Source of the DNA: Psychrobacter arenosus
GTDB lineage: Bacteria; Pseudomonadota; Gammaproteobacteria; Pseudomonadales; Moraxellaceae
Direction: 5' to 3'
Assembly: GCF_904848165.1 (NCBI RefSeq)
Contig: NZ_LR884459.1
Coordinates: 2,356,001-2,420,000, forward strand
Length of the DNA: 64,000 nucleotides
Shown here: piece after piece, positions 20,175 through 24,741 of the stretch
Layout of the letters: every line of letters starts with the position of its first letter
How positions within the stretch are numbered: position 1 is the stretch's first letter
Translations under genes and position numbers: made by a program
Notes under the pieces: generated by a model
What the model was told of the DNA's origin: nothing
Seen by the model: only the letters and a program-made list of their open reading frames with translations
The model's database searches: none

Positions 20175-20409
20175 ATAATTTCCTTATTTATTTAATTTAT
20201 TCATTAGGATTTGTTTTGACATCTTTTTATAAAAGATAATGAGTGCCGCTGATGCAAACTGTAGTAAGTAAGCTAATTTATTGGTTTTAAACTATAGGCT
20301 TAACTCATTGCTGAATCTGGATTTACGGCCAACTTGCTCACTTACCTTAACGCTCAGCCGCTCGAAAAACAGCTATAATACTGTAACTAACCCTAACTGA
20401 TTGCTGCTC

Positions 20410-21003
20410 ATGATTAACCTCTTCACGCCATCCTCTCCTAATCCAACGCTAGGCGAAATTACAGACAAACATACTGATATAAAAATCGAATCAGCAGCTG
20501 CAAAAGCTAGCTTGCAAGAGTCATCTAGCGCCCCTACTTTACGCCCACTATTTTGGCAAAGTTTCGCTTTGGATGAACTCACTACAGTAGAGTGGGAAGC
20601 CTTATGTGACGGCTGCGGAGCTTGTTGTCTGGTGAAGTTTTTGGAAGATTACGACGATCAGACCGACGTTGAATATACTGACGTGGCTTGTCGCTTATTA
20701 GATTGCGAGTCGGGTTACTGTTCTAACTATGCCGACCGCCAGCAATATGTGCCCGATTGTGTCTCGCTAACCTACGATAAATTGGTCGATATGATGTGGT
20801 TACCCAGTAACTGCGCTTACAAACGCTTATATTTAGGCCAAGATTTACCCGAGTGGCATTTGCTAATTACCGGCGATGCGGTAGCCACGCAACATGGTAT
20901 GCGAGCGGCAGGGGTAGGGGTAGCAGGGCGTTGCATTAGTGAAGTGGGCGTTGGCGAAGAGGAATTAGAAGAGCGGGTTGTGACTTGGATTGAGGTTAAT
21001 TAA
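20410..21003 (+). CDS. ycgN: YcgN family (UPF0260) cysteine cluster protein
   Basis: A protein of about 197 residues with many conserved Cys: CDGCGACCLVKF, CRLLDCESGYC, DCVSL and NCAYKRLY. This pattern is that of YcgN/UPF0260, probably a metal-binding protein of unknown function. I chose the ATG at 20410; the longer frame begins with TTG. The last 28 codons occur again at 21499-21589, identical in protein apart from two missing residues and the last residue, but with several synonymous base differences. A small AT-rich gene begins 6 bp after its stop. Confidence 0.88.
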   Translation: MINLFTPSSPNPTLGEITDKHTDIKIESAAAKASLQESSSAPTLRPLFWQSFALDELTTVEWEALCDGCGACCLVKFLEDYDDQTDVEYTDVACRLLDCESGYCSNYADRQQYVPDCVSLTYDKLVDMMWLPSNCAYKRLYLGQDLPEWHLLITGDAVATQHGMRAAGVGVAGRCISEVGVGEEELEERVVTWIEVN

Positions 21004-21009
21004 AGAGAT

Positions 21010-21255
21010 ATGAAAAAAAGCTTGGAAGAAATTAAATCAAATAGAGCTGATTGGGAAGCTATTGCATACGCTTTTTACTCACTTGCACATAACGATTTTA
21101 GTATATGGGATAATCTGTCATATGATCTAAAAGATAGCGAGGTAGGAACGATATGTCAAAAGTATATCGATACTAAAGACTATAAGTACGTTAGAGAAGC
21201 AGGTCAAATGCTTGCTGGAGAGCACTGGTTTACTGCATTAGGAAGAACATTTTAA
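21010..21255 (+). CDS. Small AT-rich protein of unknown function (possible cargo/immunity-like)
   Basis: An 81-residue soluble protein (MKKSLEEIKSNRADWEAI...) that I do not recognise. It is rich in Asp, Lys, Tyr and Trp and lower in GC than ycgN and DUF4105. It starts 6 bp after ycgN with an AAAGAG ribosome-binding site, and is followed by a fragment of the DUF4105 gene on the other strand. Such small, acidic, AT-rich genes often are immunity proteins, but that is only a guess here. It sits in the first of two duplicated ycgN/DUF4105 intervals. Confidence 0.55.
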   Translation: MKKSLEEIKSNRADWEAIAYAFYSLAHNDFSIWDNLSYDLKDSEVGTICQKYIDTKDYKYVREAGQMLAGEHWFTALGRTF

Positions 21256-21285
21256 TGCTTAGCTTAACGAGCAAAGGACACTTGG

Positions 21286-21504
21286 TTAATTTTCTTTAAG
21301 CATAGTATCAGTCAGTCCTTTCCGAATCAGCTTGGAATAAGCATCGACAGACTGCTTTTCTGCCGCGCTAAAAGTTTGAGTTTTTGGATTGGTATGCGAC
21401 TGGCGATACCATTCCTTCATTGACCATTTGCCGTCTTGATTATCTTGGTCATTCTTACTAGCACCACTTTGCTCGCTAGCCGTAGATTTGTTAGCAATAG
21501 CGGC
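21286..21504 (-). pseudogene. Truncated second copy of the DUF4105 gene 3' end
   Basis: The minus strand reads about 72 codons in an unbroken frame homologous to the end of the full DUF4105 gene at 23485-24741. Shared segments include NQDGKWSM, EWYRQSH, NPKT and QSVDAYSKLIR. It ends in its own TAA with a different tail (GLTDTMLKEN). Its upstream border is an abrupt join at the 6-bp sequence AGCGGC (21499-21504), which also occurs at the matching points in ycgN and full DUF4105. No promoter or start is present, so it is a fragment, not a working gene. Confidence 0.85.
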
Positions 21505-21589
21505 AGGGGTAGCAGGGCGTTGTATTAGTGAAGTGGGCGTGGGTGAAGAAGAGTTAGAAGAGCGGGTTGTGACTTGGATTGAGGTTTAG
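21499..21589 (+). pseudogene. Truncated second copy of the ycgN 3' end
   Basis: Encodes the last 28 codons of ycgN in frame up to TAG, with protein nearly identical to the resident gene (CISEVGVGEEELEERV) but several third-position changes. One GVGVAG repeat unit is shortened to GVAG. Similarity stops at the stop codon. Synonymous divergence suggests that the copy came from a related strain's functional allele rather than from decay of a recent duplicate. Confidence 0.85.
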
Positions 21590-21929
21590 AGGTAGATGAT
21601 AAAAATGGGTTTCTATTCACTCTATCCAATTTATTAGCTGCGATTGAGTCTATGTCATAAATGTACTGCATCATATAGTTTATGGGAAGCTCGTAATATG
21701 CCTTATGGGAGCAGCACGGTTCCCTAGTGAGGACTTGAATACTAGGCTGTGTGCTAATGATGTCAACGTTTTAACTCACTAAGATAGTCGCAGTGTACTT
21801 TATGGTGTACATGCAGTAAGCTTTTTGATGTTGAGTCGCATTACTGCTACTTGTATTAAATAATTTAGCAGGTAGCTTGATAGGTACTACACTAGTAATC
21901 ACCATAATTCATTCTCAAGAGCAATAAAA
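21590..21929. other. Gene-free AT-rich spacer in the accessory pocket
   Basis: No credible coding frame on either strand. A short inverted repeat around TGTAC/GTACA lies near 21795-21815. The composition resembles the cargo genes rather than the flanking core genes. Confidence 0.4.
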
Positions 21930-22379
21930 ATGAGTAGCTTAGTCAATTATGATGAAAACATATCCATTCAGCTTGCACCAGTTTCTTATAATGAGTTTGG
22001 CGTAATGTGCAGCTTGGAAGTAAAAACAAAGCTGATATGCTTGGATTTTAAAAATGTTAATGAAGTAAATAGATATATGTCATATGAGAATATAACTTAT
22101 CTGCAAAAACAACTTACAAAGCTGGATAATTTAGATCAGTTTGAAGAGGAGGATGAACTAGTCTTTTCTATCTATCCTATTGATATGTTCTTCACTATGG
22201 ATATCTTTAAATCAAATGACTACTTGTTGTTTATCAAGCTAAGAGTGCCTGTTGGAGTTTATACAAACAGTAAAATTACAGGATATGACTTTGGTTTGGA
22301 TTTTTCCGTTAGGGCAAGTGCTTTTAAATTGTTTTTAGAGGATTTTCTCAATGATTGCCAAGAAATGTCGATTTCTTAA
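21930..22379 (+). CDS. Hypothetical AT-rich protein (distantly WapI/immunity-like?)
   Basis: A 149-residue acidic, beta-rich soluble protein (MSSLVNYDENISIQL...) without a recognised domain. The layout, with alternating hydrophobic strands and a C-terminal helix with FKLFLEDFLNDC, faintly recalls small immunity proteins such as the WapI group, but I cannot confirm this. The ribosome-binding site is weak (AAGAG). It lies in the second duplicated ycgN/DUF4105 interval and is AT-rich relative to its neighbours. Confidence 0.5.
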   Translation: MSSLVNYDENISIQLAPVSYNEFGVMCSLEVKTKLICLDFKNVNEVNRYMSYENITYLQKQLTKLDNLDQFEEEDELVFSIYPIDMFFTMDIFKSNDYLLFIKLRVPVGVYTNSKITGYDFGLDFSVRASAFKLFLEDFLNDCQEMSIS

Positions 22380-22686
22380 TAACCTATCTGTAAGTGAGGT
22401 GTGCTTATGGCGAACCAATCATGTGCTTTCACTGGTTCGGTGCGCTATACAGGCATCTAACTACTCATGTTGCATACGAATTGCATGATTACTAAATCGA
22501 TAGAACAGACTATTATTAAGCGGTAGGCTTAAAACCTCCCAAGTTAGTTTCTACCGACTTTACAGCATATCACCACCACATGTAACAATGAGCGTTAGGT
22601 TATTAGTGATGCTTTCAGAGGCTTAATTTTCTAGGCATAGCTACTGTTTTTTAATTAGCTCTTTTATGCTAGACGTTGATTAATTA
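22380..22686. other. Gene-free spacer between two unknown genes
   Basis: About 300 AT-rich bases between genes that converge. I see no gene, repeat or clear terminator in it. Confidence 0.35.
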
Positions 22687-23073
22687 TTAGAAGAAAACAC
22701 CTTCAATATATAATAAGTAAAACACATACATAATTAAGCTTAGGACAAAAGCAATAATAAACTTAAAAATACTATTTAATATCTGACTAGTATTGCTTTT
22801 GGATATTATTGTCAAAAATAAAAATATTATTGATGAATAAATTCCATAGTAATAAACACTGAGTAATATTACAAAGAATACAACTAACTTAATTGTATTC
22901 TTGTGAAAAAATCTATAGCTATATATAAATGGGATGCACAATAAAACTAACCAAGAGATTTCTATCGTATCAGAATATAGACATTGTCTCATTGGACAAT
23001 AAATATTAATTAGCAATACTGTGATAATACTTATTGAAAGATAATAGGTAATTAATATGCTGATTTTTTTCAT
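22687..23073 (-). CDS. Small hydrophobic membrane protein of unknown function
   Basis: 128 residues, very AT-rich, with about four membrane helices: residues 5-25, about 38-53, 62-80 and 100-122. The opening MKKISILITYYLSISIITVL is a membrane anchor. There is no recognised family. An AAAGGT ribosome-binding site precedes the ATG. It could be a membrane immunity protein or other cargo of the accessory pocket; this is speculative. Confidence 0.5.
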   Translation of the reverse strand: MKKISILITYYLSISIITVLLINIYCPMRQCLYSDTIEISWLVLLCIPFIYSYRFFHKNTIKLVVFFVILLSVYYYGIYSSIIFLFLTIISKSNTSQILNSIFKFIIAFVLSLIMYVFYLLYIEGVFF

Positions 23074-23484
23074 GACTCTTTACCTTTATTTTTAAAATTC
23101 TCAATCACAGTATTTCTTTCATTAAATCTCTTGCATAAGTTGGCACTATCCGTTGAAGCTTAGCTATTGGAAGCCAATAAAATGGTGCTTTTGCAAGAAA
23201 TTTACTCTGAAATATCTAAAAATCACCAGTAATTTTTTTTTGGAATTATTGATTCAAAATTAATATTATGAATTAGGGTATACCCTAGCAGAACCAGTTA
23301 TTTCAGCCTTTAAACCGATTAAGAAACCACTTAAAACAGACTGGTGTAATGGAACCACTTAGAACGTTAATAGGTGCTAGGTTTATAAGGCTTAACTTTA
23401 ATACTAAAGGGCTAAGAGTTTAATCTCCTAGCTCTTTTTTATTGCCTAATAAATAATAAACCCAGAATAAAGGACAGTAAGAAT
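23074..23484. other. AT-rich spacer with one terminator-like hairpin
   Basis: No gene is seen. At 23409-23440 a plus-strand hairpin (arms GGGCTA and TAGCTC plus inner GAG/CTC) is followed by TTTTTT. It would stop transcription entering the convergent DUF4105 gene. The rest is AT-rich without recognisable structure. Confidence 0.45.
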
Positions 23485-24741
23485 TTACGGGGTATCTGTT
23501 GAATCGTCCGGCATGAGCACAGTTTTAGGCAAGCCCTGACGAATCAGCTTGGAGTAAGCATCGACAGACTGATTGTCTTGAGCACTAAAGGTTTTAGTCT
23601 TCGGATTAATATGCGACTGACGATACCACTCATCCATTGACCACTTGCCGTCTTGATTATTCTGATCATTGTTATCAGTGCTATTTTGCTCGGTGACCGC
23701 TGCTTGATTGGTAATAGCGGCTTGTTTAGCAGAATTAGTATTGGGGGTATTCGGTAGGATGCCTAAGTCATACAGATAATTGGGCAACCAACCGGATACC
23801 CAAACACGGTAGTCCCAAGGTAGCTCACCACCACTGATAGCATGCGCCATATAAAAGATGATGTTGGTGCAATTGCTGGTCAGCGTGTTATACCACTGCG
23901 GCTGCGCTTGCAAATCATCGGCAGCAGTAAGATAGGCCTCAAACAGTTTCTGTATTTCTGCTTTTGTCAGATTATCGATAGGGAATAGATAGACTTGTTC
24001 GCCGCGCGCATTGGTACGGGTATAAATAATATCGCGTTCCTCAGCAGCGACCAGACTGAGTTCATACTGCTTAAAAAAACCGCCAATTGCCGAAAAGCTT
24101 TCATTCTTCTCTTTGCGAATCTCAAAAGAAAAAGACAGTGGTTGCGCATCCTCAAAGTGAAAACTCACCAAAGTGTGCGCAATCAATGGCCCCATCCAAT
24201 AAGCATTCGCAATATCCACCCCAGTAAGCTTAGAGAGGTCGACTTGGCGAGTCTGCCAGTGCTCATCTGCTGTTTCAGCCGTCTGCCAATCAAAGTTACG
24301 CACATTATGTAGGGTGACCAGATTCGGATTATTAGCATCGCGCTCGTAGTGTAAGACCTCGGCGACTTCAGGTTTCCAATCGCGTTGTTGCTGCGGGGCT
24401 AAGGAAACAAACCAAATCAGGCCCAATAACCAGATGCCTGTATAAAGCCAACCCAAACGCTTAGCAGAAGTGCCAGTGACACTAGGTTTATGACGGGCTA
24501 GTAATAAAGCCAATGCCAATAAAGCGACTACAGCAATCAAGGGCCAACGTAATAAAGGCGTGGCTGCCAGCTCATACCAGAATGCCGTGGTGAGCCAAGC
24601 CGCACTCAGGACAATAGCTATACTAGAGCCCCATTGCCATAGACGCGGTAACCAGCGTTTGGGTTTTTTGTGCCGCGTCAATGCTGACACGGGTTGAGTG
24701 CCAGTAGCAGTAGGACGGTTTGCATCATGAGACGGGGGCAT
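23485..24741 (-). CDS. DUF4105 membrane protein (Lnb N-terminal periplasmic domain family)
   Basis: 418 residues with three N-terminal membrane helices (about 35-55, 62-80, 92-110), then a periplasmic domain. The stretch QWYNTLTSNCTNIIFYMAHA contains the conserved Cys of the DUF4105 papain-like fold, and a His in LIAHTLVSFHF may be its partner. Function is unknown. The C-terminal 100 residues are hydrophilic with Asn/Gln runs. The last 75 codons occur again as a fragment at 21286-21504. It converges with ycgN across the accessory pocket. Confidence 0.85.
   Translation of the reverse strand: MPPSHDANRPTATGTQPVSALTRHKKPKRWLPRLWQWGSSIAIVLSAAWLTTAFWYELAATPLLRWPLIAVVALLALALLLARHKPSVTGTSAKRLGWLYTGIWLLGLIWFVSLAPQQQRDWKPEVAEVLHYERDANNPNLVTLHNVRNFDWQTAETADEHWQTRQVDLSKLTGVDIANAYWMGPLIAHTLVSFHFEDAQPLSFSFEIRKEKNESFSAIGGFFKQYELSLVAAEERDIIYTRTNARGEQVYLFPIDNLTKAEIQKLFEAYLTAADDLQAQPQWYNTLTSNCTNIIFYMAHAISGGELPWDYRVWVSGWLPNYLYDLGILPNTPNTNSAKQAAITNQAAVTEQNSTDNNDQNNQDGKWSMDEWYRQSHINPKTKTFSAQDNQSVDAYSKLIRQGLPKTVLMPDDSTDTP

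Follow-up and report, generated by a model that had tools for sequence, protein, structure and literature searches.

Integron gene cassettes carry one type of site, attC, and are arrayed at one locus, and pdif modules have 28-bp XerC/XerD sites at both ends. In orphan toxin-immunity modules of the contact-dependent inhibition (CDI) and Rhs type, fragments of flanking genes separate successive immunity genes. For the orphan immunity arrays of the V. cholerae type VI secretion system (T6SS), the available passages of the source propose homology-facilitated illegitimate recombination (PMC5361080), and those on pdif sites record none in 31 Psychrobacter plasmids (PMC6449649). On the plasmid pP62BP1, 83-bp inverted repeats around a serine recombinase and a pair of 142-bp inverted repeats are described in the passages of Lasek 2012 that were compared (PMC3346939); these passages also mention the repeats in other Psychrobacter chromosomes, with P. 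arcticus 273-4 and P. cryohalolentis K5 among the reported carriers, and assume that the 142-bp pair is linked to site-specific recombination or gene transfer. Here, we analyzed a 64,000-nucleotide window (bases 2356001-2420000) of the single-contig, 3.70-Mb genome assembly of Psychrobacter arenosus (G000), in which the gap between ycgN and a DUF4105 gene (now Lnb_N in Pfam) appears to be doubled. The cargo of one of its two versions lies between two non-coding repeats of about 95 bp each, designated L and R.

We consider it probable that the region consists of two tandem versions of the ycgN/DUF4105 gap, A and B, and that the ends L and R, which bracket the cargo of version B, belong to a cassette family found across the genus, in which the cargo is probably exchanged and the slot and ends are retained. 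The order of elements was ycgN, an 81-aa gene and a DUF4105 tail, followed by a ycgN tail, a 149-aa gene, a 128-aa gene and DUF4105. The gene order and fragments given in a preliminary description of this DNA were thus exact, every element being recovered with its coordinates. Version A comprised the 3′ end of the full ycgN gene (CxxCxxCC domain, PF03692; plus strand, start at 20401 or 20413, end at 21003), the 81-aa gene (21010-21255, plus strand), which is predicted to be all-helical and is possibly immunity-like, and the 3′ tail of DUF4105 (21286-21504, minus strand), whose frame is open. Version B began with the ycgN 3′ tail (21499-21589, plus strand), an allelic repeat of the full ycgN end. 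It continued with the left flank of the cassette slot (21590-21716), the left end L (21717-21811, plus strand), the 149-aa gene for a predicted orphan immunity protein (21930-22379, plus strand), a partial L-like remnant 3′ of that gene (22393-22447, plus strand), and the 128-aa gene (22687-23073, minus strand), a membrane protein as predicted from its hydrophobic sequence. The right end R (23277-23367, plus strand), the right flank of the slot (23368-23484), and the full DUF4105 gene (23485-24741, minus strand) completed it.

The region contained direct repeats of 217 nt with 76% identity and 88 nt with 92% identity, far above chance. The two ycgN tails differed in 5 of 27 codons, all synonymously, in addition to an altered last codon and stop, which agrees with the earlier statement that the ycgN fragment differs mainly at synonymous sites. 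Over 46 codons of the DUF4105 tails, 24 were identical, 14 differed synonymously, and 8 nonsynonymously. Such a substitution pattern of allelic tails is not expected of fragments decaying after a duplication. The two versions meet at AGCGGC (21499-21504), the site named in the preliminary description, and the 6-bp microhomology claimed there holds only if version B of ycgN lacked one GGGGTA unit that is present in version A; had version B once carried this unit, the join would have had almost no microhomology. The right join had 6 bp of homology or less.

When the other 104 genomes of the genus were searched with both flanking genes, P. pygoscelis (G043) came out as the nearest. The flanks outside the version B cargo matched it at 83% over 127 bp on the left and at 84% over 105 bp on the right, and apart from this genome the 98 fetched loci gave no match better than E 0.3. 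Furthermore, the DUF4105 tail of version B carried a ...DDST.TP C-terminal extension in common with G043, and tail A, like that of G087, had no such extension. Because both flanks are common to the nearest relative, version B with its 149- and 128-aa genes is likely the resident version, and version A was likely added through a one-sided illegitimate join. Incoming foreign DNA with ycgN, the 81-aa gene and DUF4105, free of L and R, would have paired by homology in or upstream of the resident ycgN, and the interior of the incoming DUF4105 would have been joined illegitimately at AGCGGC onto the resident ycgN, without long homology. The new cargo would thereby have been placed ahead of the resident cassette, added to the old cargo rather than replacing it. 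No donor DNA for version A was found, and the left crossover presumably lay in or upstream of ycgN. The fusion of two alleles of one intergenic region, as first proposed, is supported by the allelic tails, the version B flanks, and the DUF4105-B tail matching G043.

Across the genus, all 105 genomes had ycgN, and 103 of them had DUF4105. The gap survey comprised 98 intervals from the 104 other genomes (G031, G037, G038, G039, G062, and G093 being absent), and the gap was measured in the 92 intervals in which both stops were placed, the remaining six having no DUF4105 nearby. While 77 of the 92 gaps were 180 bp or shorter (median 46), 12 of the larger ones held one family, read as lipoproteins, of which one scanned member had no Pfam match. 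Two gaps held a DUF4105 broken by stop codons (L124 in G048 and L175 in G012), and that of G043 held a 315-aa gene identified as Imm49 (PF15575, E 5e-11, above the cut-off). The latter sits between L and a partial R, of which about 41 bp are recognizable, in the same slot as the version B cargo. The gap as a general docking site for small genes was not borne out, and the gap itself as a hotspot was rejected because most gaps are short; what docks is the L/R cassette, and it was found at many other places. The preliminary description had suggested looking for a strain whose gap holds just the 81-aa gene; none was found, and 0 of 347 other Moraxellaceae genomes encode this gene.

R was found in 94 of the 105 Psychrobacter genomes and L likewise in 94, and L occurred in 2 of 239 other Moraxellaceae genomes. 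Among plasmid records, 78 contained R (Psychrobacter 52, Acinetobacter 22, Moraxella 2, Klebsiella 2) and 43 contained L (Psychrobacter 35, Acinetobacter 5, Moraxella 2, uncultured 1). As queries at E 1e-3, L and R matched separate places, and neither matched the other. A classical transposon or miniature inverted-repeat transposable element (MITE) with terminal inverted repeats was rejected because L and R are dissimilar at this threshold. An integron gene cassette would have a single site type, and L and R are different sequences. A known RNA family was rejected since positions 21000-23500 of the window matched no Rfam model at E 1. Single-strand folding gave z values from -1.9 to 0.5 for L and R, and of -2.5 for the partial L remnant (3 of 200 shuffles were equally good).

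The pairing of the two ends was determined in a census of 150 listed R matches and 150 listed L matches. Among these, 51 of the 150 R copies had an L within 6 kb, and 46 of the 51 pairs were oriented L→R on one strand, with 745-5477 bp from centre to centre; four of the other five close pairs were on opposite strands and one was R→L. The 46 of 51 correspond to P ~1e-22 against 25%, a value that treats the pairs as independent, which they are not, related genomes sharing slots. Relatives of the 149-aa gene elsewhere were enclosed by both ends in two genomes (G068, G020). In G069 and G093, L adjoined the gene and R was 4-5 kb away, and G010 had R only. A second L copy, partial or full, was present 3′ of the 149-aa gene and ahead of differing further genes in the window, G020, G068, and G069, and cassettes may accordingly also be joined in series.

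The cargo turnover was followed at further slots. A match to the crcB neighbourhood was obtained in 100 of the 105 genomes, and the best 30 loci were fetched (L309-L338). Among these best 30 of 100, R was located at crcB in 27, of which 20 also had at least part of L, and the 42 open reading frames (ORFs) beside R fell into 34 families. In the seven loci without L in the fetched stretch, the ORFs counted were those within the 1.3 kb preceding R, and L338 ends before the site. The crcB neighbourhood is itself a cassette slot with cargo differing in most of the fetched genomes, including barstar, Imm49, Hint-like, and Sel1-like proteins. Further shared slots lay beside apaH, a pseudouridine-synthase gene, and ksgA/pdxA, these names being a reading of the ORFs and not a domain scan.

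Three types of cargo were each shared by different slots, with homology running all the way between the two ends. The cargo with a 337-aa gene occurred in three kinds of place (L281, L293/L306, L314) with 97-98% DNA identity, and its homology block started between 4 bp before and 42 bp inside the L match and ended at most 13 bp from the edge of R. The Imm49 cassettes at ycgN (G043), the pseudouridine-synthase slot, and crcB (L208, L291, L335) were 78-80% identical from L to R, and a cation-efflux cassette in two slots (L288, L304) matched at 99%. A column-wise identity profile of the ends, based on hand-picked same-cargo pairs (16 for L and 14 for R), indicated that the outside of L tracks the slot and its inner half tracks the cargo. 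Ten bases near the outer L edge (GTGAGGACTT) were 96-99% identical in all three pair classes, and the preceding ten were 84-95% identical. These end profiles fit an exchange via crossovers in or at the ends.

The cargo comprised 123 ORFs in 88 families. The scan covered 105 cargo ORFs of at least 85 aa; identical copies were left out, as were the two genes of the window, a transposase ORF (L198), and the long spans in G069 and G093 (L197, L200). In the 25 commonest of 88 Pfam families, Sel1 repeats were found six times, cation efflux four times, MerR, ankyrin, barstar, and Imm49 three times each, and beta-lactamase twice. Since, within these 25 families, immunity families accounted for 6 of the 105 scanned ORFs, immunity genes do not dominate the cargo; they form one class among accessory genes of a general kind. 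The cassette at L280 (G058:C122) held a mercury-resistance operon, and beta-lactamase-family genes were present in the cassettes at L294 and L276.

The preliminary description had called the cargo immunity-like, which was upheld for the 149-aa gene, through a relative located after a toxin-tail ORF, and for Imm49 in G043; the 81- and 128-aa genes gained no functional support. The relative of the 149-aa gene in G318 (L202:4041-4487; 35% identity over 148 aa) directly follows the toxin-tail ORF L202:4496-4837. It belongs to an array (G318:C27) that comprises five toxin-tail/immunity-like pairs, with a PT-VENN/PT-HINT protein at the head of the first. The short ORF starts like the other tails of the array, and it was taken as a toxin tail because its start is common to the head of the array. 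The best match of the own genome to this tail was at E 0.139 and not clear, and a toxin unlike that tail would escape such a comparison. With no clear counterpart of the tail in the own genome, the 149-aa gene would be an orphan, and it likely encodes an immunity protein against a CDI-type toxin. Independent support for cassettes collecting immunity genes came from an 88-aa gene located 7 bp after the own filamentous-haemagglutinin-like toxin (at least 2750 aa), since relatives of this gene at 54-56% identity were crcB-slot cargo in G048 and G063. The 81-aa gene had four relatives (two in Microbulbifer, one in Agarivorans, and one on another contig), and its family was found in the own genome only among 390 genomes of the order. 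Neither the 81- nor the 149-aa protein had a match in plasmids.

A stretch of the own genome from base 2948500 onwards (L349:1-16600) contained a CDI-like toxin locus with the 88-aa putative immunity gene, insertion sequence copies, a toxin tail of the endonuclease type, and one copy of L. Its genes of 139 and 142 aa were 88% and 81% identical to cassette cargo of G063 (L292), and its 156-aa gene was 69% identical to cargo in G101 (L281). The 149-aa gene also had distant relatives (25-28%) in two genomes of a different genus within the family, where they lay beside an oligopeptidase-like gene (L203 in G129 and L204 in G178), whose neighbourhood is perhaps another fixed slot.

A serine recombinase of 212 aa (Resolvase, PF00239) started no more than 40 bp past R in 15 of the 32 copies from the top loci and in 7 of 41 in the pair loci, the latter rising to 10 of 41 if homology within 400 bp was counted. 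In many copies, R lay 13 bp ahead of the recombinase gene, and res sites are placed likewise. The order on pP62BP1 (L339) was L, an operon for sodium dodecyl sulfate (SDS) degradation, R, the recombinase, inverted R, further genes, and inverted L, with L as an inverted pair around the R-recombinase-R′ unit; an inverted L pair was also present in G101. The cassettes could move via site-specific recombination, given the serine recombinase that follows many R copies, or via ordinary homologous recombination within their ends once DNA has been taken up.

As to the system as a whole, we see an even chance that it is a cassette exchange system of Psychrobacter's own, in which one to about five genes are bounded on the left by one end (GGTWCCCTAGTGAGGACTTGAA...) and on the right by another that carries a promoter-like TATAAT immediately ahead of the serine recombinase or a core gene. 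Its cargo would be swapped at fixed chromosomal slots and on plasmids. It would also be a shared store of immunity genes against the contact-dependent toxins of rivals, with illegitimate joins stacking immunities, and would form the genus counterpart of integrons and of the Acinetobacter pdif modules. Several results weigh against the main reading, the one considered probable above. In G000 and G043, a stretch of 3.5 kb around crcB showed neither L nor R, no precise empty site was recovered, R of the G043 Imm49 cassette was recognizable over only about 41 bp, and identity inside R tracked neither cargo nor slot. Other cargo was common with the L end only (L270/L285, L301/L320, L272/L309) or with the R end only (L274/L304, L277/L328, L299/L317); such one-ended sharing implies that end-to-end movement is not the whole story and that cassettes also recombine inside. 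On the immunity side, besides the low share of immunity families in the cargo, the toxin link of the 149-aa gene comes from one relative at 35% identity, and the L202 toxin-tail ORF had no Pfam match above the cut-off (DUF4258 at E 0.03). Pfam and NCBIfam scans of the 81-, 149-, and 128-aa proteins gave nothing above cut-off, and fold searches of the PDB with models of the 149-aa (predicted local distance difference test, pLDDT, 86.7) and 81-aa (pLDDT 95.5) proteins gave no match at E 0.001. For the doubled gap, the comparison did not include other strains of this species, and the order of events is therefore inferred. As to how exchange would proceed, we give a little less than an even chance to a purely RecA-dependent route, in which natural transformation is followed by homologous recombination within the conserved ends and flanks and the serine recombinase is unrelated. 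None of the 26 R copies at crcB was followed by the recombinase, which may therefore be a passenger, and a pattern in which inner L tracks cargo and the outside tracks the slot is what crossovers inside L would produce; cargo sharing one end points the same way. Against a purely RecA-dependent exchange, the ten bases near the outer L edge are more conserved across all pair classes than a homology arm needs, R precedes the recombinase gene in many copies in the manner of res sites, and the passages of Lasek 2012 considered here put R in a multimer resolution system (PMC3346939).

A different account, which we regard as unlikely, treats L and R as dispersed short repeats of the MITE type or the repetitive extragenic palindromic (REP) type that landed in variable regions, so that their cargo is coincidental. 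Both are indeed short, non-coding, and multi-copy, each also occurs alone, and most of the listed R copies had no listed L. However, chance landing accounts poorly for the order and strand common to 46 of the 51 listed close pairs, for the three cargo types that stay homologous from L through to R at different slots, and for the 20 of 30 crcB loci in which R and at least part of L surround mostly differing cargo. As for the doubled gap, version A could instead be a tandem duplication of the resident region that diverged and had its cargo replaced, with no donor DNA involved, and the order of parts and the similarity of the tails (92% and 76%) are as such a duplication would leave them. This origin appears slightly less plausible still, since the cargo of A and B is unrelated, the DUF4105 tail of version B resembles that of G043 and tail A does not, and every change in the ycgN tail is synonymous even though no coding constraint acts on a fragment. 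An assembly artefact seems very improbable: the evidence comes from one assembly and reads were not part of it, but this assembly is a single contig, the versions differ in sequence and cargo, and the 81-aa protein is listed on eight contigs in the protein database, the contigs themselves not having been inspected.

Compared with the described systems, the ends of the version B cassette, read as a unit of L, cargo and R, correspond by position to the repeats on pP62BP1, R to the 83-bp repeats and L to the 142-bp pair (PMC3346939). The L-cargo-R unit, fixed slots, cargo turnover, and immunity cargo do not appear in the compared passages of Lasek 2012 (PMC3346939), and no account of L-cargo-R cassettes was found in the titles or abstract starts of open-licence PMC papers. 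The Acinetobacter modules are alike in that, in the passages compared, short conserved sites bracket adaptive genes moving between replicons (PMC6449649), whereas L and R, each about 95 bp long, are unlike each other. The small, varied cargo, fixed sites, and cargo exchange are reminiscent of integron gene cassettes, from which the two unlike ends and many slots differ. In the V. cholerae arrays, as far as the consulted passages go, a new module likewise stands beside the old one and the old immunity gene is kept (PMC5361080), and the stacking described here may be akin by analogy to the mechanism proposed for them. However, the present site has no effector or secretion cluster, its flanks are housekeeping genes, and the resident cargo lies in an L/R cassette. 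Flanking-gene fragments between immunity genes are also a feature of orphan CDI/Rhs modules; here, the fragments are of ycgN and DUF4105 and not of a toxin.

If the cassette reading is true, it would mean an overlooked genus-wide trade in small accessory genes at fixed places, which came to light through one doubled slot. The two end sequences would then be a handle for many small unknown genes, including new immunity proteins and hence the toxins that they block. The doubled slot itself would be a chromosomal case of immunity-like genes stacked rather than swapped, outside any toxin cluster.

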